Notes under the pieces: generated by a model | The model's database searches: none | Seen by the model: only the letters and a program-made list of their open reading frames with translations | Told to the model about the DNA's origin: nothing | Assembly: GCF_030378205.1 (NCBI RefSeq) | Contig: NZ_CP127385.1 | Coordinates: forward strand, 434,001-498,000 | From: Bradyrhizobium sp. NP1 | GTDB taxonomy: Bacteria > Pseudomonadota > Alphaproteobacteria > Rhizobiales > Xanthobacteraceae | Length of the DNA stretch: 64,000 nt | Direction: 5' to 3' | Shown: one piece after another, positions 47,215 through 55,465 of the stretch | Layout of the letters: the number at the start of each line of letters is the position of its first letter | How positions within the stretch are numbered: position 1 is the first letter of the stretch | Translations under genes and position numbers: made by a program

Positions 47215-47475
47215 TTGTCGCAGCGCGATTGTGAGACAGCTCACAAGGGATTGGTGGCCGCGGCGCTATGGATGGGGACGGCAGGGCCAGTCAGCTTCGA
47301 GGGCCGGGCGATGAACATGCGGCGAATGGCGTATTGGTGGTTCAGGTTCGTCGTCTCGGGCCGCTTCATCGCGACGTTCTTCAACCTGCGGCGCACACGG
47401 AGCCTCGAGAGCTCGGTCCGGCAGCCCGGTGAAGCGGCCGAATCGAGCGCCGCTAGCTCTGGCCGATCAGCTTGA
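47215..47475 (+). CDS. Possible small protein, uncertain
   Basis: An open frame beginning TTG (AGGAG upstream), with in-frame ATGs at 47272 and 47311. The segment from 47311 (MNMRRMAYWWFRFVVSGRF) is basic and aromatic with GC-rich third positions, so a small protein of about 54 residues is possible. No family was recognised. It overlaps the convergent gene at 47453 by 23 bases. The bases 47088-47214 show nothing. Confidence 0.3.
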   Translation: MSQRDCETAHKGLVAAALWMGTAGPVSFEGRAMNMRRMAYWWFRFVVSGRFIATFFNLRRTRSLESSVRQPGEAAESSAASSGRSA

Positions 47476-48673
47476 GGCAGGAATTCACGGAATGGCTCAC
47501 CGCGTCGCGCCCGCGCCATGCCAGATGGCCGAGGCGGCGCATCAGCGACCCGCCGCCGCGCAGGCTGCGCGATCCCAGCACGTGGCCGACCTCGGGCGGG
47601 AAGCGGCTCACCTCGGATTCGATCAGCGCGGCGATGCTGTCCATCAGGTGGCGCAGGCGCCGACCCCAGTCGGAATCGTCGAGCTCGTTGATCCGGGTCT
47701 GCAACGCGTATTCGGCCTCATAGATCGCGACCAGGATCTCGCGCGCCACCAGCACGCGGTTCCGGCGCAGCGCCATGCGCAGCGTCGAACGCGCATCCTC
47801 GATCTGGTCGAGCGCCATCGAGACGGTGATGGCATAGGGCGTCGTGGCGATGTCGGCCGCTTTCTTGCTGGCGGCCGCCCGGGTCGCCAGGAAGATCAGT
47901 TGCCACGGCGTCTTCAGCCGCCTGGCGACCATCGCGAGCCCGAACGGCAGCGCGTCGGCATGCTCCTTCTTCAGGCCGTTCAGCAGCGTTCCGACCTTGC
48001 CCTGGATCGCCTCGTCGAAATTGTCGATCTTCACCGGCAGCGCCGCGTCGAATTTCGTCAGCGTCTCGCGCGCACGCAGCACGATCATCATCTTGGTGAG
48101 GTCGCGATAGGCTGATTGTGCGGCCGTGTAGGTCGCGAGCTTGGCGCGCGTCTGCTCGGCGCTGTCAGGCGAGGCGAGCGCGTTCTCCAGATATTTGACG
48201 ACCTTGGTCTGGAAGGTCGCTGCCGCCTTGCGCAGCTCCTTCGGCTTGTCGGAGGTGGCGAGCTTGCCGACCTCGTCGACATAGTCGCGCGCCATCGTCG
48301 GCAGATCGCGGATGATCCACTCCCAGATCGGCAGCAGCGAGCCGCGCGGTATCCTGCCGGCATTGTCGTGCTCGGGCGCGCCATCGACCAGCACCGGCTC
48401 GAGCGGCGCGAAGAACAGGCGCGCGGGATCGCTGATGCGGCTCTGGCTGCTGCCGTCCTTGCGGAATTCGGCGCGCAGCTTGGCCTGGATGTCGCTGGAG
48501 CCCGAGATCTCGACGCCGCAATGTTCGAGCCGCTCCAGCTCCGCGAGCAGACAACTCCGCGTCAGCGGACTGAGCCGCTGCAGGAAGTCCCAGATCCGCT
48601 CGGTTTGCTTCATGGCGCGCGAGGTCCGCAGCTCGATGGCGACCGGGAGTGGTCGGCCGATGCGTGGAGGCAT
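47453..48673 (-). CDS. Conserved hypothetical protein, 406 residues
   Basis: A soluble, largely helical protein. It begins MPPRIGRPLPVAIELRTSRAM and has WDFLQRLSPLTRSCLLAEL, then a long alpha-helical body rich in Ala, Leu, Lys and Arg, with no membrane segment. Function is unknown; similar genes lie near flagellin or LuxR-type genes in this genus, as far as I can tell only from this context. The start at 48673 follows GGGAG five bases upstream; an internal ATG at 48613 has a poor site. A CCGTA-N4-TACGG palindrome lies 62 bases upstream. Confidence 0.75.
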   Translation of the reverse strand: MPPRIGRPLPVAIELRTSRAMKQTERIWDFLQRLSPLTRSCLLAELERLEHCGVEISGSSDIQAKLRAEFRKDGSSQSRISDPARLFFAPLEPVLVDGAPEHDNAGRIPRGSLLPIWEWIIRDLPTMARDYVDEVGKLATSDKPKELRKAAATFQTKVVKYLENALASPDSAEQTRAKLATYTAAQSAYRDLTKMMIVLRARETLTKFDAALPVKIDNFDEAIQGKVGTLLNGLKKEHADALPFGLAMVARRLKTPWQLIFLATRAAASKKAADIATTPYAITVSMALDQIEDARSTLRMALRRNRVLVAREILVAIYEAEYALQTRINELDDSDWGRRLRHLMDSIAALIESEVSRFPPEVGHVLGSRSLRGGGSLMRRLGHLAWRGRDAVSHSVNSCLKLIGQS

Positions 48674-48735: not shown

Positions 48736-48749
48736 CCGTAAAAATACGG
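48736..48749. promoter_or_regulatory. Palindrome CCGTA-AAAA-TACGG (site 1)
   Basis: A perfect 14-bp palindrome in the gap between the divergent genes at 48673 (62 bases away) and 48896 (146 bases away). An extra CCGTA half-site is directly adjacent at 48731-48735. It belongs to the family described for 49851, 50832, 52595 and 54749. Confidence 0.7.
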
Positions 48750-48895
48750 AATGCAGGCGACCTCGCGCGCACCGGATGGAGCGGCAGGGCGGTCAACAGG
48801 CGGGCTCGCCGAGGGCGCGGCGGCACGGGAACACCGTAATCTTACTGGGCACGAATTTAACTGCGGATCCGCCTCAGTTCCGTTAAACAACTGAG

Positions 48896-49480
48896 ATGCC
48901 GCACGAAAAGCGCTTGCCCGATTCGACCGTCGCGAAGTGGATCGAATCCGGCACGCCTCTCAGCGAGGCAGACCTTGCCAATTTGCCGCTCGCCGTGCCG
49001 CTCACCGGTGAAACCGCCGCGGCGATCCTGCGCGAGCTCAACGGGCCGCTGACGGCACTGTTGCTCTATATGGGCGAAATCAAGCTGCACAGCCGGCGAC
49101 TGATCGAGGCCGACGGCGATCGCAGCTATTTGCAGCAGATCATCGAGAATGCGCTGCAGCAAACCATGCGTGTCTGTGCCTTTGTCGAGCGGCTTTCCGG
49201 GGCGCAGCTTGGGGCGGCGCGTCCCGCTGCAACCGGCGATGACGATCGCAATGTTCCGCGCGCAGCACCGGCATCAGTCGCCGGCCGCAAGCCGCTCACC
49301 CGGCGCGAGCGCGAGGTCTTGAAGCTGATCAGCGAGGGGCACACCAACAAGCAGGGCGCCTTGCGCATGCGCATCAGCCCGCGAACCTTCGAGAGCCATC
49401 GCGCCGAGGTGATGCGCAAGCTCGGCGCGCGCAATACTGCGGATCTGGTCCGCGCGGCGCTGCTCTACCGCGAGGATTGA
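48896..49480 (+). CDS. LuxR-type regulator with histidine-kinase-like helical N terminus
   Basis: A 194-residue protein. The C-terminal GerE/LuxR helix-turn-helix (about residues 128-190) reads PLTRREREVLKLISEGHTN and RISPRTFESHRAEVMRKLGA. Residues ~36-98 resemble the dimerisation helices of a histidine kinase: LRELNGPLTALLLYMGEI corresponds to the H-box HELNQPLTAL, but the phospho-accepting His is Arg. A short Ala/Pro linker joins the two. It is likely a dimeric DNA-binding protein with a pseudo-kinase helix bundle. It lies next to palindrome site 1. Confidence 0.8.
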   Translation: MPHEKRLPDSTVAKWIESGTPLSEADLANLPLAVPLTGETAAAILRELNGPLTALLLYMGEIKLHSRRLIEADGDRSYLQQIIENALQQTMRVCAFVERLSGAQLGAARPAATGDDDRNVPRAAPASVAGRKPLTRREREVLKLISEGHTNKQGALRMRISPRTFESHRAEVMRKLGARNTADLVRAALLYRED

Positions 49481-49535
49481 GGGCCCGCGGTCGGCCGGCG
49501 GTCGATGCGCAGCGGTCCGCGACGGCTTGACGATT

Positions 49536-49787
49536 TCAGCAATAATCTTCGGCGAACAGGCGTTCGGGCGGCACGAGCCGTGCGCTCGACGGCGGGGTTT
49601 GCTTCGGCGCGCTCGGAACGATCGTGATGGTCCAGCGCGGCGGAATGCTCGCGTTCATCTCCCGCACGGATCGAACATAGCCTGTCACGGTGGCGCCGCC
49701 GCTCCTGACCGTGGTGGTCCTGCCGTTGAACTGAGCGATACGGAAACGACGGGCTTCCTTCTGGTCGGCCGTCTCGAACGTGAACAT
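49536..49787 (-). CDS. Small conserved hypothetical protein
   Basis: An 83-residue basic, beta-rich protein: MFTFETADQKEARRFRIAQF, then GRTTTVRSGGATVTGYVRSV and a Pro-rich end. No known family. The start at 49787 follows AGGAGAGC; 49820 is a poorer start. A CCGTA-N4-TACGG palindrome lies 63 bases upstream, nearly the same distance as for the genes at 48673 and 54687. Confidence 0.65.
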   Translation of the reverse strand: MFTFETADQKEARRFRIAQFNGRTTTVRSGGATVTGYVRSVREMNASIPPRWTITIVPSAPKQTPPSSARLVPPERLFAEDYC

Positions 49788-49850
49788 GATGCTCTCCTGT
49801 GGCGGCGGCATCATCGTCATTCATGGTTAGCCATGTATGAAAATCACCAG

Positions 49851-49864
49851 CCGTAGAAGTACGG
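49851..49864. promoter_or_regulatory. Palindrome CCGTA-GAAG-TACGG (site 2)
   Basis: A perfect-arm copy 63 bases ahead of the minus-strand gene at 49787. The next plus-strand gene (50337) is 472 bases away, so the minus-strand gene is the likely target. Confidence 0.7.
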
Positions 49865-50029
49865 CCGCAATCGTCCGCGGGGGGCCGGCTCATGGCGTCG
49901 GCAGCCGCCGCCGATACGCGGTCTGACGGCCTCGTGGCATTCCCAGGCGGAGCGCCGCAGCGCCGCGCTGATGATCTCGATATGTCCGCGGCAAGCTCGT
50001 GCGGATCAGAAGGTTGCGCATGGCTGCAC

Positions 50030-50207
50030 TGCGATCGGCCACAAGGCGGAACTCCGCGAGGTCCCACTATGCGGCAGGAACACCTGCGAGGGAACCGCGC
50101 CGGCTTCGATCAGCATCGCGTTCCCGGCGCTTGAGATGCGGCTGCAGCGCGCGGAAATCGGTGTCGCAGAGCGCTTGCAGCAGGTGGTTGGGCGGACGCT
50201 TCGACAT
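50030..50207 (-). pseudogene. Remnant of a Crp/Fnr family regulator N terminus
   Basis: From ATG 50207 the frame reads MSKRPPNHLLQALCDTDF, then ALQPHLKR, as in the first helix of Bradyrhizobium Crp-like proteins, and stops at 50067. A second frame, shifted at about 50110, continues the homology with LIEAGAVPSQVFLPHSG. The cNMP domain after that and the helix-turn-helix are lost. This reads as a frameshifted, truncated gene. The rest of 49865-50336 shows no functional gene. Confidence 0.55.
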
Positions 50208-50336
50208 CGTTGTATTTTCGCAAGTATGCAATTCGGATAAAGCCTATACATTGTACCGGGCAGACACGCGGGTCGCTTTGCAGCCGAAATGGGATTACGC
50301 AGCGATTCACCGCAGCAATCATGAGCGGAGGGAAGC

Positions 50337-50747
50337 ATGCCGCGTATTCTCGTCGTCGATGACGATCCGCTGGTCTGCAGCGCGGTCCAACTCTGCCTGG
50401 AGCGTCAGGATTTCGAAGTTGTGATCGCTGATGGCGGGGAAGCGGGACTGCGCGCGCTTGAGGGCCAAGCCTTCGACCTGATGCTGGTCGACATCTTCAT
50501 GCCGCACATGCGTGGCTTCGAGTCGATCAGGATCTTTCACGAACGCGCCCCGGCGGTTCCGCTGGTGGCGATGTCCGGCTACGCCTTCGCCAGTCTCAAT
50601 GCGCCGGCGCCCGATTTCCTGAAGATGGCGCTCGAGCTCGGCGCGTCGCGATGCCTGCGCAAGCCGTTCACGCCGGCGGCGCTGCTGATGGCGGTGAGGG
50701 AGTGCCTGTCGGAGACGGACGCGCGCGGGCAGCGCGACGCCGGCTGA
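50337..50747 (+). CDS. Single-domain response regulator
   Basis: A 136-residue receiver domain without output domain. It has the acidic pair in LVVDDDPLV, the phospho-accepting Asp in LMLVDIFMP, Ser in MSGYA, and Lys in LRKPFTP. A stretch between the Ser and Lys (APDFLKMALELGA) has the same unusual form as in the regulator at 55479-55907, so the two are close paralogues. GGAGGG precedes the start. Likely signals to a separate protein in the motility/LuxR cluster. Confidence 0.9.
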   Translation: MPRILVVDDDPLVCSAVQLCLERQDFEVVIADGGEAGLRALEGQAFDLMLVDIFMPHMRGFESIRIFHERAPAVPLVAMSGYAFASLNAPAPDFLKMALELGASRCLRKPFTPAALLMAVRECLSETDARGQRDAG

Positions 50748-50831
50748 GCGGAGCCGCGCCGCCTCGCACGTGCGCATGCCGGTCTGCCGCGCCGGTAGGC
50801 CCCGGGCCGGTGCGTCGATCCTCCGTTGCTG

Positions 50832-50845
50832 CCGTAGTTGTACGG
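50832..50845. promoter_or_regulatory. Palindrome CCGTA-GTTG-TACGG (site 3), upstream of flagellin
   Basis: A perfect-arm copy 105 bases before the flagellin start. It is followed after seven bases by CTTAAC, an arrangement shared with site 5 read toward its minus-strand gene. Confidence 0.7.
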
Positions 50846-50950
50846 ACCGCGGCTTAACCAGTCGGTAGGGTTAAGTGTGCAGGGTGGCCGGCGCGCTGCA
50901 CATGTAACCGTGCAGCGGTTCTAGTTGCGTCTGTCCAGAAGGATATGAGT

Positions 50951-52516
50951 ATGACCGGCATTGTGCTTTCGGCCTCGGTTCGCCAGAACCTGCTTTCGCT
51001 GCAGTCCACCGCTTCGCTGCTTGCTACCACTCAGAATGACCTCGCCACCGGCAACAAGGTCAATTCGGCCCTCGACAACCCCACCAACTTCTTCACCGCC
51101 CAGTCACTGAACAACCGCGCCAGCGACATCGGCAACCTGCTCGACGGCATCGGCAACGGCGTCCAGGTGCTGCAGGCCGCCAATAGCGGCATCACCTCGC
51201 TGCAGAGCCTCGTCGACAGCGCCAAGTCGATCGCCAACCAGGTGCTGCAGAGCCCGCTCGGCTACTCCGCCAAGTCCAGCATCACCTCGGCCGCCATCAC
51301 CGGCGCCACCGCCAACAACCTGCTCGGCACCACCGGCACCAACGCCACCGTGACCGGCACCGCCGTCAACAACAACCTGACCTCGGCCGTCGCCATCACC
51401 AGCGCCACCACGCTGTCGGGCGCCGCCAACACCGACTCGCTGTCGTCAGCCATCTCCACCGGCGACACCCTGGTCGTCAACGGCACCACCTTCTCCTTCG
51501 TTGCCGGCTCGACCTCCACGGGCACCAATATCGGCGTCGGCGACACCGTTGCCCACCTGCTCTCCGCGATCGATACGGTGACCGGCGCCACCACCGCCTC
51601 CAGCGTCAACAGCGGCAAGATCACGCTGTCCACCGGCACCAGCCAGAACCTGGTGATCTCCGGCACCGCGCTTGGCAAGCTCGGCTTGACCGCCGGCACC
51701 ACCAATGTCGGGCCGCCCGCCTTGTCCGGCGAGACCTTGACGATCAACCCCACGGGCGGGGGAACGGCGACCTCGATCACCTTCGGCACCGGCAACGGCC
51801 AGGTCTCGACGCTGAACGGATTGAACGCGGCGCTGGCCGGCAACAATCTGCAGGCGACGATCGATGCCGCGACCGGCAAGATCAGCATCACCACGACCAA
51901 CGACGAGGCATCCTCGACGATCGGCACGATCGGCGGCTCGGCGACCTTGAGCGGCGCGGCCTTCAACGGGTTGACCCCGGCGGCGCCGGTGGCCGATCCG
52001 AACTCGCAGGCGCAGCGTGCGAGCCTGGTCGCGCAGTACAACAACGTGCTGGCGCAGATCAACACCACGGCGCAGGACGCCTCGTTCAACGGCGTCAACC
52101 TGCTGAACGGCGACACGCTGAAGCTCGTGTTCAACGAGACCGGCAAGTCGACGCTGAGCATCTCCGGCGTGACCTTCAACGCCGTTGGCCTTGGGCTGTC
52201 GACGCTGACGGCAGGCACCGACTTCCTGGACAACGCCTCGGCCAATAAGGCGCTGACCACGCTGACGACGGCCTCCTCGACGCTGCGCTCGGAAGCTTCG
52301 ACGCTGGGTTCGAACCTGTCGATCGTGCAGATCCGCCAGGACTTCTCCAAGAACCTGATCAACGTGCTGCAGACCGGTTCGTCGAACCTGACGCTCGCCG
52401 ACACCAACGAGGAAGCGGCCAACAGCCAGGCGCTGTCGACCCGCCAGTCGATCGCGGTCTCGGCGCTGTCGCTCGCCAACCAGGCCCAGGCCAGCGTGCT
52501 GCAGCTGCTGCGCTAA
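50951..52516 (+). CDS. Flagellin
   Basis: The filament subunit, 521 residues. The conserved N-terminal D0/D1 helix region is GIVLSASVRQNLLSLQSTAS to about residue 110, and the C-terminal D1/D0 helices (~410-521) include NEEAANSQALSTRQSIAVSA and end QASVLQLLR. The middle (~110-400) is a Thr/Gly/Asn-rich surface domain like those in alphaproteobacterial flagellins. I chose ATG 50951 because AAGGA is seven bases upstream; ATG 50945 is only one base from it. A CCGTA palindrome lies 105 bases upstream, and a strong terminator follows. Secreted through the flagellar channel, so no signal peptide. Confidence 0.95.
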   Translation: MTGIVLSASVRQNLLSLQSTASLLATTQNDLATGNKVNSALDNPTNFFTAQSLNNRASDIGNLLDGIGNGVQVLQAANSGITSLQSLVDSAKSIANQVLQSPLGYSAKSSITSAAITGATANNLLGTTGTNATVTGTAVNNNLTSAVAITSATTLSGAANTDSLSSAISTGDTLVVNGTTFSFVAGSTSTGTNIGVGDTVAHLLSAIDTVTGATTASSVNSGKITLSTGTSQNLVISGTALGKLGLTAGTTNVGPPALSGETLTINPTGGGTATSITFGTGNGQVSTLNGLNAALAGNNLQATIDAATGKISITTTNDEASSTIGTIGGSATLSGAAFNGLTPAAPVADPNSQAQRASLVAQYNNVLAQINTTAQDASFNGVNLLNGDTLKLVFNETGKSTLSISGVTFNAVGLGLSTLTAGTDFLDNASANKALTTLTTASSTLRSEASTLGSNLSIVQIRQDFSKNLINVLQTGSSNLTLADTNEEAANSQALSTRQSIAVSALSLANQAQASVLQLLR

Positions 52517-52540
52517 ACCGCATAATATTGAATCGAAAGC

Positions 52541-52569
52541 CAAACGGCGGGGGAAACCCCGCCGTTTTT
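52541..52569 (+). terminator. Rho-independent terminator after flagellin
   Basis: AAACGGCGGGG (52541-52551) and CCCCGCCGTTT (52556-52566) form an 11-bp stem with a GAAA tetraloop, ending in a T-run. It is 24 bases after the flagellin stop. Confidence 0.92.
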
Positions 52570-52594
52570 GCGTTGGCCGCACCGTGCGCGCCCC

Positions 52595-52608
52595 TCCGTA
52601 TTTCCACG
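52595..52608. promoter_or_regulatory. Near-palindrome CCGTA-TTTC-CACGG (site 4), upstream of cheY-like gene
   Basis: One mismatch from the CCGTA-N4-TACGG consensus (T to C in the right arm). It lies between the flagellin terminator and the cheY-like gene, 95 bases ahead of that start. Confidence 0.5.
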
Positions 52609-52703
52609 GACCATGAAATTAACGGAAATGAACAAGCCGGGCCGCTATCGCTTAGCCGAGGCGCAATCCGTCCGCCGCATGAGATCGGCAAGGAGGGTCA
52701 AAC

Positions 52704-53090
52704 ATGAAAACATGCCTCGTGGTCGACGATTCCCGTGTCGTGCGAAAGATCGCCCGGCAGATCCTGGAGAAACTCGATTTCGCGATCATCGAAGCCGCCG
52801 ATGGCGAGCAGGCGCTGCAAGCCTGCAGGGATGCCCTGCCGGACGCCATCCTGCTCGACTGGAACATGCCCGTGATGGATGGCTACGAATTTCTCGGCCG
52901 TCTGCGCGACCTGCCAGGCGGCGAGGGGCCGAAGGTGGTGTTCTGCACCACCGAAAACAACATCGAACATATCTCGCTGGCGCTGCGCGCGGGTGCCGAC
53001 GAGTACATCATGAAGCCGTTCGACAAGGAAATCGTCGCCGCGAAATTCATGGAAGTCGGCTTGCTGCAATCCGCCGGCCCGTCCGCCTGA
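52704..53090 (+). CDS. CheY-like response regulator
   Basis: A 128-residue receiver with the acidic DDSR pair, the phospho-accepting Asp in LLDWNMPVMDG, Thr in CTTENN and Lys in MKPFDK. This is the CheY form with WNMP. It is the first gene of a short operon with cheR (31-base gap) and a PilZ gene, so it probably controls motility or flagellar output. AGGAGG at 52691-52696 precedes the start. Confidence 0.93.
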   Translation: MKTCLVVDDSRVVRKIARQILEKLDFAIIEAADGEQALQACRDALPDAILLDWNMPVMDGYEFLGRLRDLPGGEGPKVVFCTTENNIEHISLALRAGADEYIMKPFDKEIVAAKFMEVGLLQSAGPSA

Positions 53091-53121
53091 ATCCGAAGCG
53101 TTTGCGTCAAGAGAGGCCGTC

Positions 53122-53997
53122 GTGATCCCGTCCGACTATGAGTATCTGCGCAAGTTTCTCAAGGAACGTTCCGGTCTCGATTTGTCGGATGACAAGCAGT
53201 ACCTGATCGAGAGCCGCCTGCTTCCGCTCGCGCGCAAGTCCGGCCTGCCCGGGATCGGCGAGCTGGTGCAGGCGATCCGCGGCGGCGCCGCGCCGCTCGC
53301 AGGCCAGGCGGTCGAAGCCATGACCACCAACGAGACGTTCTTCTTCCGCGACAAGGCGCCGTTCGACCATTTCCGCGAGCTGATCATGCCGGAGTTGTTG
53401 CGGGCGCGCACATCCCGCAAGAGCATCCGGATCTGGTGTGCTGCATCTTCGACCGGCCAGGAGCCCTATTCGCTCGCGATGTGCATCAAGGAGATGGGGC
53501 TGGCCATGGCCGGGTTCCGCGTCGAGATCGTCGCGACCGACCTCTCCGAGGGCGTGCTCGAAAAGTCGAAGGCGGGCCTGTACAGCCAGTTCGAGGTGCA
53601 GCGCGGCCTGCCGATCCAGCTTCTCGTCAAATACTTCAAGCAGAGCGGCGAGCTGTGGCAGATCAGCCCGGATATCCGCGCGATGGTCCATCACCGGCGT
53701 TTCAATCTGCTGCACGACTTCACGCAACTCGGCACGTTCGACGTGATCTTCTGTCGCAACGTGCTGATCTATTTCGATCAGCCGACCAAGGACAACATCT
53801 TCCGACGGCTTGCCGGAACCATCGAGCGCGACGGTTTCCTGGTGCTCGGCGCGGCCGAGACGGTGGTGGGCCTGACCGGGGCGTTCGAGCCGCAGCCGGA
53901 ACGCCGCGGCGTCTATCGGCCGAGCGCGACGCAGTCGGCAAGGCTGGCGGGCAAGCCCGCGGCCGCGCCGCAACTGGCAGCGCTGGCGGGGATCTAA
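53122..53997 (+). CDS. Chemotaxis methyltransferase CheR
   Basis: Methylates glutamates of chemoreceptors with S-adenosylmethionine. The 291 residues contain the N-terminal helical CheR_N (about 1-70, with TTNETFFFRD) and the catalytic domain with the cofactor motif AASSTGQEPYSLAM, the ATDLSEGVL acidic loop, and CRNVLIYFD. There is an Ala/Pro tail. It starts with GTG at 53122; GAGAGG is upstream. No C-terminal receptor-binding pentapeptide system or TPR is visible. Confidence 0.95.
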   Translation: MIPSDYEYLRKFLKERSGLDLSDDKQYLIESRLLPLARKSGLPGIGELVQAIRGGAAPLAGQAVEAMTTNETFFFRDKAPFDHFRELIMPELLRARTSRKSIRIWCAASSTGQEPYSLAMCIKEMGLAMAGFRVEIVATDLSEGVLEKSKAGLYSQFEVQRGLPIQLLVKYFKQSGELWQISPDIRAMVHHRRFNLLHDFTQLGTFDVIFCRNVLIYFDQPTKDNIFRRLAGTIERDGFLVLGAAETVVGLTGAFEPQPERRGVYRPSATQSARLAGKPAAAPQLAALAGI

Positions 53998-54000
53998 GTG

Positions 54001-54306
54001 ATGGCGGAGGACGGCAAGATTCTCGACCGCGTGACCTTCAGCCGCGGCTACGACGTTTGCATCATGGCCATCGACGGCACCTGGCGGCGCAATTGCCAGC
54101 TCAACGCGATCTCCGACAACGACGCCATGCTGAGCGTCGAGGGTTCGATCCAGGGACTCAATCTGAAGGAGTTCTTCCTGCTGCTGTCGTCGACCGGCCT
54201 TGCCTATCGTCGCTGCGAATTGATCAAGGTCAACGGCGCGGAGATGGACGTTCAGTTTCTGAAAGCCCGGCAGGGAAAGCGGAAGGTGCGCGAGGCCGAC
54301 GCATAA
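54001..54306 (+). CDS. PilZ domain protein
   Basis: A 101-residue single PilZ-like domain. The sequence is RGYDVCIMAIDGTWRRNCQL and NDAMLSVEGSIQGLNLKEFFLLLSSTGLAYRRC, consistent with the family. The cyclic-di-GMP motif RxxxR and D/NxSxxG are incomplete: only weak equivalents are visible, so nucleotide binding is not assured. It follows cheR by three bases (GTG at 53998 is an alternative start), so they are co-transcribed. A role at the flagellum is plausible. Confidence 0.78.
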   Translation: MAEDGKILDRVTFSRGYDVCIMAIDGTWRRNCQLNAISDNDAMLSVEGSIQGLNLKEFFLLLSSTGLAYRRCELIKVNGAEMDVQFLKARQGKRKVREADA

Positions 54307-54399
54307 CGCGCGCGTGAGCACGGCGTGAGCGGCTGATGGAGATAATTGTGCCCCGGCGGCGGTGGCCGGCCACCGGCGCGACCGGCCTTGACGTCGGAT

Positions 54400-54687
54400 T
54401 CACGCGGTTCCCGCGTTCCTCAGGAAATGCAGTGCGGCGGTGAGGCGCTCGTCCGACATCTTCAACGCTGCGTGAGCCTTCTCGTAAGGCAGCGTGAGAT
54501 CATCAAGCACGAAGACGTCGGCCGGTTCCTCGGCAGCCGCGGCTTCGCGCGCAATAGTCATTTCGACCAATGCGAGGCTGGCCTGCACGCGGCCGACCAG
54601 AGAGGTCAGATCGGCGACCACCGATCGGTGGCTGGCATCTGGCCGTCCATCCGCCGGCTCGGTCGATTTGTCTCGCTTTTCTTGCAT
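54400..54687 (-). CDS. Small conserved hypothetical protein
   Basis: A 95-residue acidic protein with a helical middle: SVVADLTSLVGRVQASLALVE. A Pro/Ala/Glu-rich segment follows, then LPYEKAHAALKMSDERL. No family recognised. The palindrome CCGTA-N4-TACGG lies 61 bases upstream of its start, on the divergent side of the FixJ-like gene. It converges on the PilZ gene. Confidence 0.7.
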   Translation of the reverse strand: MQEKRDKSTEPADGRPDASHRSVVADLTSLVGRVQASLALVEMTIAREAAAAEEPADVFVLDDLTLPYEKAHAALKMSDERLTAALHFLRNAGTA

Positions 54688-54748
54688 CGATGCGCTCCGA
54701 TCTCGCGTTGTATGGCGTGCGTTGCTACTTGTGCGTTAAGTCGTGCTC

Positions 54749-54762
54749 CCGTACAAATACGG
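54749..54762. promoter_or_regulatory. Palindrome CCGTA-CAAA-TACGG (site 5)
   Basis: A perfect-arm copy between the divergent genes at 54687 (61 bases away) and 54833 (70 bases away). Read toward the minus-strand gene it is followed after eight bases by CTTAAC. Confidence 0.7.
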
Positions 54763-54832: not shown

Positions 54833-55465
54833 ATGGCCGAAAAAGCAGCCTCGCGTGGTGAGGTCTTCGTCGTCGACGATGATCCTGCGGTTCGCGACAC
54901 CCTATCCCTGGTGCTGAAGGCGGCGGGCTATGATGTGATTTGCTTTGCGGACGGCGCGGCGTTGCTCGCGGTGGCAAGGAGCCGAACCCCGGCCTGCATC
55001 CTGCTCGACGTGCACATTCCCGGCAAATCCGGTCTCGACATCCTGAAGGAACTGCACGGCGAGGAGTATCCGGCGCCGATCTTCATCATCTCCGGACAGG
55101 GCGACATCCCGATGGCGGTCAGCGCCATCAAGCACGGCGCGCTTGATTTCGTCGAGAAGCCGTTTCGCGGTAGCGAGATCGTGATGCGTCTCAATGAGGC
55201 GATCACCGCCTATCAGCGCCGCCAGCAGGAAGCCGCGATGCCGAAAGTCGCGTCGCTGCATTTTCCGGGACGCGAGCCGTTGACGCGGCGCGAGCGCGAG
55301 GTGCTGGAACAGTTCACCGCCGGCGCGTCGAACAAGGAAGCCGGCCGCCAGCTCGGCATCAGCCCGCGCACCATCGAGGACCACCGCGCCAACATCATGA
55401 AGAAGCTCGGCGCCCGCAACGCCGCCGACCTGATCCGAATCGTGATGACTGCCCAGCGCGCCTGA
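54833..55465 (+). CDS. FixJ-like two-component response regulator
   Basis: A 210-residue regulator. The receiver domain (residues 1-125) has VFVVDDDPAV, Asp in CILLDVHIPG, IISGQGD and VEKPF. The LuxR-type output domain (about 143-205) reads PLTRREREVLEQFTAGASNKE and GISPRTIEDHRANIMKKLGARNAADLI, close to the output domain of the gene at 48896. The start at 54833 has no strong ribosome-binding site (GGTGGCAC); in-frame starts further upstream read through palindrome site 5. It is a candidate for binding the CCGTA palindromes. Confidence 0.9.
   Translation: MAEKAASRGEVFVVDDDPAVRDTLSLVLKAAGYDVICFADGAALLAVARSRTPACILLDVHIPGKSGLDILKELHGEEYPAPIFIISGQGDIPMAVSAIKHGALDFVEKPFRGSEIVMRLNEAITAYQRRQQEAAMPKVASLHFPGREPLTRREREVLEQFTAGASNKEAGRQLGISPRTIEDHRANIMKKLGARNAADLIRIVMTAQRA

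Follow-up and report, generated by a model that had tools for sequence, protein, structure and literature searches.

Introduction

VisN and VisR of Sinorhizobium are LuxR-type proteins that stand atop motility and chemotaxis control. Promoters activated by CtrA in Caulobacter carry the sequence TTAA-N7-TTAA, the 5' nucleotide of which lies near -35, and at -39 in ctrA P2 (PMC4287350). The footprint of S. meliloti FixJ at fixK extends from -69 to -44 (PMC4999443). For B. diazoefficiens, chemotaxis work published in 2026 reports that regulation or operon partners make two near-identical CheA proteins unequal in importance, and it gives the driver of differential che1/che2 expression as not known (PMC13390405). 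Here we describe a repeated palindrome, CCGTA-N4-TACGG, in a motility and chemotaxis cluster of Bradyrhizobium sp. NP1, which lies in a stretch of 64,000 nucleotides (nt) at positions 434001-498000 of contig NZ_CP127385.1 (hereafter the window). We take the palindrome to be a genuine control site, conserved in relatives, of a regulon for chemotaxis and motility. It is most likely the operator of the FixJ-like response regulator encoded at 54833, beside a CtrA-like box, with the LuxR-type protein encoded at 48896 as a second candidate binder.

Results

Copies of the palindrome in the window and genome

Within one mismatch, the window holds six copies of the palindrome where 0.47 would be expected by chance, a number reached in none of 100 shuffles. 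Four copies are exact, and all four fall inside the 6-kb cluster (Table 1), at the positions that an earlier note on this DNA had named. The one-mismatch copy reported there is present, one base away from the given 52595-52608, at 52596-52609, and the statement that the window holds no other copy gives way to a further one-mismatch palindrome at 48834-48847. The distances of 62, 63 and 61 nt that the earlier note gave to hyp406, hyp83 and hyp95 are right for the starts it named, that of hyp83 at 49787 being backed by relatives, and the distance of 70 nt to the FixJ-like gene is likewise correct. The flagellin gene lies 99 nt from its palindrome when ATG 50945 is the start, instead of 105 nt, and the cheY-like gene 94 nt instead of 95 nt. 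The LuxR-type gene was rightly listed as a target, with a different site: the copy 48 nt before it at 48834, and not the copy at 48736 (146 nt), which we rejected as the luxR operator, the place that is conserved being occupied by 48834.

The whole genome (7,712,921 bases) contains 12 exact palindromes, including the four in the cluster. A simple gene caller places 10 of the 12 between genes; the copies at 48736 and 54749, called inside genes, are taken to fall within over-extended starts of open reading frames (ORFs). Exact copies are intergenic in 13 of 21 and 16 of 20 cases in two relatives, one of the 16 having no gene called nearby at all. The check proposed with the original claim, that copies should lie between genes and be conserved, was run in part, and with copies mostly intergenic and the cluster sites conserved in relatives, it leaves the regulon unrefuted. 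At L012 a separate exact copy stands 60 nt upstream of prmA, and it was not upheld as a site: copies with the same spacer were found in two genomes (G002 and G022) in repetitive, coding-like sequence elsewhere.

Conservation in relatives

A protein scan with the FixJ-like protein as query returned 80 loci, mostly named Bradyrhizobium, and the palindrome is found upstream of the FixJ-like gene in every one of them (74 exact, six with one mismatch), 79-141 nt from the start of the match. In an alignment of the window with 37 of the 80 loci (20 rows displayed), the conserved blocks are the palindrome and GCTACTTGTGCGTTAAG, whereas the sequence between them and the start of the FixJ-like gene has diverged. 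Upstream of luxR, 23 of the 24 loci that reach that position have a site within one mismatch (the exception is L209), and all 25 luxR loci have one where hyp83 has its site. The hyp406 site recurs within one mismatch in some relatives only, at a place similar by position (L024, L214, L216, L219, L221 and L223).

The site before the cheY-like gene is, in several relatives, the promoter site of a cheA-cheW-cheY-cheR operon. Among distinct cheA upstream regions, 13 of 14 carry a site within two mismatches, followed by TTAAC; because three of the 14 were found through this composite of palindrome and TTAAC itself, the fair count is 10 of 11. At L282, a site points towards cheA at a contig edge. 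Flagellin genes in nine related loci were also compared: a two-mismatch form (GGGTATTTGTACGG or TGGTATTTGTACGG) lies at -113/-114 before four of the 10 genes, a three-mismatch form can be made out by eye in L041, L054 and L088, and the site is absent from L014 and L035. Several relatives have cheA and cheW at the place of the local che unit (52596-54306), which lacks both. Among the loci L013-L092, many draft contigs end 2-3 kb before the FixJ-like gene is reached, perhaps because flagellin or che genes are repeated there, and calls of absence in drafts are for this reason unsafe.

A second element resembling a CtrA box

TTMA follows the palindrome after 8-9 nt, read towards the gene, in eight of 10 promoters not selected for it; hyp83, hyp95, cheY, luxR, flagellin and three chemoreceptor genes have it, and the STAS and hyp406 promoters do not. 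Over 36 offsets in a set of 35 promoters, the best further match to TTAA was at offset 21, which puts exactly N7 between it and the first TTAA. On average 1.91 of 4 letters agree there, the mean over offsets being 0.89 (z 3.4; runner-up offset 20, z 2.3). This second half is degenerate and often reads GTAG. The best match to TATAAT begins at offset 37 (z 2.7; runner-up offset 20, z 2.5). The set leaves out six of the 20 hand-picked loci described below (L315, L319 and L320, all luxR relatives, and L328, L329 and L332), and the flagellin and MCP_L010 promoters, whose spacer is 8 nt, were shifted by one base by hand.

TTMA and a TTAA-like half at N7 together look like the layout of a CtrA box, and we regard the second element as a candidate CtrA site. 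CtrA itself is encoded in this genome at 6658878-6659549 (421.7 bits against a cut-off of 350). Should the -10 element lie at offset 37, TTAA would start at about -39 and the palindrome would span about -62 to -49, with its centre near -55.

Distribution of the composite site

Of 391 genomes of the family, 112 contain the exact composite, YCGTA-N4-TACGG-N9-TTAAC, as compared with six for the reversed control. By genus, it is present in 99 of 107 Bradyrhizobium genomes, nine of 16 in genus g44 and four of the 268 others. Allowing one mismatch, 26 matches were obtained in a set of eight genomes, one from the same genus and seven from three other genera. Sixteen of these, picked by eye and not at random, were examined, and 14 of them adjoin cheA operons, chemoreceptors, luxR or the FixJ-like gene (the exceptions are L272 and L273).

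Twenty unusual loci were further picked by hand among the exact-composite matches listed in the 391-genome search. Seven lie before chemoreceptor genes, six of them identified by BLAST and L333 from its N-terminus; three lie before luxR relatives, two before likely hybrid kinases (L317 assigned with Pfam, L322 with BLAST only), and one each precedes a STAS protein, a receiver, a GGDEF-EAL protein and a DUF2336 protein; L328, L329, L331 and L332 were matched to no target class. Judged by such neighbours, the regulon in relatives reaches chemoreceptor genes and cheA operons as well. The luxR relatives at L315 and L319 are longer (ORFs of 225 and 237 amino acids (aa)), with the composite at the ORF start.

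Exact palindromes occur in other settings as well. In three genomes looked at, copies with varying spacers stand 42-58 nt before DUF1223 genes (L002, L123 and L142), and other copies stand 39-68 nt after an unknown gene of 195-205 aa (L008, L132 and L150). Neither group has the TTAAC box, and the two are possibly a second promoter class. In two genomes of the Bradyrhizobium genus, exact copies lie near genes with sequence-based labels as GGDEF, HD-GYP and STAS proteins (L131, L154, L130 and L146), which hints at a link to cyclic diguanylate (c-di-GMP) signalling.

The FixJ-like protein 54833

Protein 54833 consists of a receiver domain (PF00072, E 6.9e-26) and a GerE domain (PF00196, E 1.2e-19), the make-up of a NarL/FixJ response regulator. 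All 12 orthologs aligned have Asp59, within LLDVHIPG, which is presumably the phospho-acceptor, as is usual for the family. The best solved relative is FixJ of B. japonicum (5xso/5xt2, E 1.5e-44), and the score of 195.3 bits lies below the 255-bit cut-off of the NCBIfam FixJ equivalog. In 80 of 80 Bradyrhizobium-type loci, the recognition helix SPRTIEDHR occurs together with the CCGTA site. Orthologs from seven genomes of other genera, 76-78% identical, have the helix SPRTIEYHRANIM (SPRTIEYHR), and six of the seven have a YCGTA-N4-TACG site with its core 55-61 nt upstream. Among 18 more distant orthologs, 16 with IEV and two with IEI in the helix, GTA-N4-TAC was not found within 260 nt of 16, and the core is present at L202 and L203. 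A match to LuxR 48896 goes beyond domain level (E<=1e-12) only in G089 (47%) and G085 (43%) of the seven other-genus genomes; in the remaining five, which do have the FixJ-like ortholog, it is domain-level at most. Because the helix co-varies with the site, and because the site occurs in genomes where no close relative of LuxR 48896 was found, the FixJ-like protein is the likeliest binder of the palindrome.

In two other-genus genomes (L278 and L284), the site beside the FixJ-like gene points via TTAAC to a hybrid kinase with dCache, HisKA, HATPase, receiver and Hpt domains, and in BTAi1 a PAS hybrid kinase lies directly downstream of the FixJ-like gene. Our guess is that these kinases pair with the FixJ-like protein.

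The LuxR-type protein 48896

The DNA-binding domain of LuxR 48896 resembles that of the FixJ-like protein, and there is no receiver domain. It fits neither the quorum-sensing LuxR receptors nor the histidine kinases: no autoinducer-binding domain was found, the only Pfam families at E<=10 being GerE, other helix-turn-helix (HTH) types and sigma-70 region 4, and the same search gave no HATPase match. A profile of 53 relatives nevertheless matches the FixL part of chains 4gcz and 8a7f over positions 15-113 (E ~4e-5), and the NCBIfam FixL model matches residues 37-100 (E 4.1e-4). With the single sequence as query, the value is only E 0.037. Pfam HisKA is below threshold in the ortholog from genome G006 (E 0.11), and among 120 listed relatives one (P0016) has it as a precomputed domain. 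In the AlphaFold2 model, long helices span 38-70 and 76-106, with a predicted local distance difference test (pLDDT) score of 71.5 overall and means of mostly 83-97 for the helix blocks. A Foldseek search with this model gave no match at E<=0.001, and the best 50 rows were HTH-type regulators with no kinase among them; the assignment as a dimerisation and histidine phosphotransfer (DHp) hairpin rests on the sequence profiles and the predicted hairpin. At the phospho-His position, which is Arg46 in this protein, 45 of the 53 sequences in the alignment have Arg and two have His. We read LuxR 48896 as a fusion in which a putative dimerisation part of the FixL type is joined to a DNA-binding part of the FixJ type, and it probably shares the palindromes with 54833.

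Extent of the regulon in this strain

The composite within one mismatch has four matches in this genome, all inside the cluster. The sole CheA match at E<=1e-20 is at 6665077-6667839, ~5.5 kb from ctrA, and is 84% identical to CheA of BTAi1. There are 15 chemoreceptor-domain matches, one of which has an exact palindrome and TTAAC upstream (at 2732793). The gene next after it has a three-mismatch candidate, and a candidate at L354 is on the wrong strand; shuffling the same 57.8 kb gives an expectation of 1.75 candidates. The regulon in this strain is essentially the local cluster.

Genes and sites of the cluster

No Pfam family was found at E<=0.001 for either hyp83 or hyp95. A sub-threshold match of hyp95 is to the RcsC alpha-beta-loop domain (E 0.021), and this protein may be a small phosphorelay partner. 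For the receiver gene at 50337 and its three relatives, no site within two mismatches was found in the 350 nt upstream.

Table 1. Genes, palindromes and TTAAC-type boxes of the cluster, in coordinates of the window.
Feature	Position	Strand	Remarks
hyp406	47453-48673	-	62 nt from the palindrome at 48736-48749
Palindrome, exact	48736-48749	-	before hyp406; no TTAAC box after it
Palindrome, one mismatch CCGTAATCTTACTG	48834-48847	+	48 nt before luxR
TTAAC	48857-48861	+	9 nt past the luxR palindrome; first CtrA-like half, second half poor here
luxR	48896-49480	+	putative FixL-type DHp helices 38-70, 76-106; Arg46 at phospho-His position; GerE/LuxR domain 133-188
hyp83	49536-49787	-	ORF, 83 aa; candidate target
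TTCAT	49837-49841	-	9 nt past the hyp83 palindrome, then CTAA at N7
Palindrome, exact	49851-49864	-	63 nt before hyp83
Receiver protein	50337-50747	+	
Palindrome, exact	50832-50845	+	99 nt before flagellin
TTAAC	50854-50858	+	8 nt past the flagellin palindrome; GTAG at N7 (50865-50868)
Flagellin gene	50945-52516	+	Flagellin_N, Flagellin_C
Palindrome, one mismatch CCGTATTTCCACGG	52596-52609	+	94 nt before cheY-like gene 52704
TTAAC	52619-52623	+	9 nt past the che palindrome
CheY-like receiver protein	52704-53090	+	first gene of the local che unit
cheR methyltransferase	53122-53997	+	
102-aa protein of unknown family	53998-54306	+	
hyp95	54400-54687	-	95 aa; divergent from the FixJ-like gene
TTAAC	54735-54739	-	9 nt past the palindrome on the hyp95 side; GTAG at N7; within conserved + strand block GCTACTTGTGCGTTAAG
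Palindrome, exact	54749-54762		between hyp95 (61 nt, -) and FixJ-like gene (70 nt, +)
FixJ-like response regulator	54833-55465	+	receiver + GerE; recognition helix SPRTIEDHRANIM

Discussion

We give a probability of roughly 0.6 to the explanation that the palindrome is an operator of 54833 which, with a CtrA box, serves the joint activation of chemotaxis, flagellin and accessory genes. A dimer of 54833 would bind CCGTA-N4-TACGG directly upstream of a CtrA-type box (TTAA-N7-TTAA) that would stand at the expected -35 region, and 54833 and CtrA would activate these genes jointly, such that the navigation system would be built only when an external signal (via the FixJ-like protein) and the cell-cycle state (via CtrA) agree. 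The regulator's own gene and luxR are among the genes that bear the site, and LuxR 48896 would probably bind the same sites and tune or limit the response. We infer the identity of the binder, the activation, the occupancy by CtrA and the start sites from the observed sites, their conservation, neighbouring genes and spacing, and the co-variation of helix and site. The palindrome probably marks an undescribed switch for building the navigation system; a paper describing it by title or abstract was not found in the literature searched, which covered few subscription papers. The earlier note had proposed a local motility or surface-lifestyle regulon under a dimeric LuxR/NarL-type regulator. The comparative evidence favours a local regulon for motility and chemotaxis with a dimeric regulator of the FixJ/LuxR type. 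"Local" holds for this strain, and in relatives the targets are wider (cheA operons, chemoreceptors). Both of the regulators it put forward, 48896 and 54833, are of the type foreseen, and the FixJ-like protein is the better supported of the two.

Several results weigh against this explanation. The loci compared are related, so the conservation counts are not independent. The palindrome alone is in no excess genome-wide, with 12 exact copies against 16 for the reversed pattern, and as a genome-wide motif judged by count alone it was rejected; with four of those copies in the cluster, the signal is one of clustering rather than abundance. The two-mismatch composite occurs 17 times in this genome and its control 14 times, and the 26 one-mismatch composites in the eight genomes compare with 15 for the reversed control. 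The main cheA of this strain has no composite in the surrounding 17-kb stretch, just one of the 15 chemoreceptor matches has a clear one, L071 keeps cheA without a site, and just four of the 10 related flagellin genes retain the site within two mismatches. Both the second CtrA half (z 3.4) and the -10 element (z 2.7) are weak, 25 of the 35 promoters behind them were found with TTAAC or TTMAC already in the pattern, and neither the hyp406 side nor the FixJ-facing side has TTAAC. Lastly, G006 keeps the luxR, hyp83, flagellin and cheA sites, and no FixJ-like ortholog was found in it (best E 4.8e-41); this absence is unsafe because only 510 bases of contig follow the che site there.

A more elaborate form of the explanation is conceivable, though less likely than not. 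The promoter would require two keys, CtrA and the FixJ-like protein, and LuxR 48896 would be a phosphorylation-blind rival on the same palindromes, perhaps docking receivers via its kinase-like helix, with an output independent of phosphorylation as the result.

Alternatively, LuxR 48896 could be the main binder in Bradyrhizobium, as a phosphorylation-independent dimer formed via the FixL-type helix pair and autoregulated through 48834. We consider this unlikely. All 25 Bradyrhizobium genomes searched encode a relative of the protein, among them G006, where the sites are kept, a conserved site precedes luxR itself, and the DNA-binding domain is similar to the FixJ-like one; set against these points are the co-variation of helix and site, which points to the FixJ-like protein, the seven other-genus genomes, of which six have a site before the FixJ-like gene and only G089 and G085 a LuxR match beyond domain level, and the assembly gap that may account for the missing ortholog in G006.

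An unlinked third regulator, of the GerE or Crp/Fnr type or a partner of CtrA, might bind the palindrome instead, with both linked HTH proteins as mere targets. Linkage and co-variation are indirect evidence, other members of the family exist in this genome, where the FixJ-like protein finds 71 matches at E<=0.001, and a 5-4-5 palindrome layout also fits FNR-type geometry. This reading is improbable in view of the site before the FixJ-like gene in all 80 loci, and of the two genera with enriched exact composites (g1 and g44), which have FixJ-like orthologs with an IED or IEY helix.

Compatible with either linked binder is the reading that the sites are repressor operators holding chemotaxis genes off. 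Sequence cannot show the direction of control, and the hyp83, hyp95 and luxR sites lie 48-63 nt from the start codons. The palindrome, however, is upstream of the presumed -35/CtrA box at a fixed spacing, as for an activator, and clear of the presumed -10, and we rate repression as improbable too. Chance palindromes or a structural, terminator-like repeat without a regulatory role would agree with the background count genome-wide and with some incidental-looking distant copies (one 6 nt after an apparent rpoC, others in coding sequence in relatives), but the copies are clustered, conserved and set at a constant distance from a second motif, which makes this very improbable.

The composite site is a concrete candidate for the difference between che1 and che2: the cheA upstream regions compared here mostly bear it, and the ctrA-near cheA of this strain does not. 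If the explanation is true, expression of chemoreceptors would be tied to the cell cycle, and LuxR 48896 would be a regulator combining the dimerisation part of a kinase with the DNA-binding part of a response regulator.

The putative promoters would resemble CtrA-activated Caulobacter promoters in TTAA-N7-TTAA, with TTAA near -39 if the weak -10 is right, and differ from them in the extra upstream palindrome at fixed spacing and in the degenerate second TTAA. The palindrome also differs from the SciP motif, GCGNC-N5-GNCGC (PMC4287350). With FixJ of the FixLJ system, 54833 shares the receiver and GerE domains, and the fixK footprint is near the position suggested here (about -62 to -49). On the other side, and counting against a FixJ-like binder, the published FixJ motifs, GTAMGTAG and TAAGTAATTTCCCTTA, are unlike CCGTA-N4-TACGG (PMC4999443). 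The FixLJ regulon has fixK and nifA as targets, whereas mainly chemotaxis and signalling genes are found here, and the sites described here do not fit that regulon. LuxR 48896 shares a predicted DHp-like helix hairpin with the FixL sensor kinase; unlike FixL, it has no ATPase match, its phospho-His position is mostly Arg, and it is fused to an HTH. Compared by description only with VisN/VisR, LuxR 48896 is distinguished by its predicted FixL-type helix pair before the HTH and by the CtrA-like box in its promoter.

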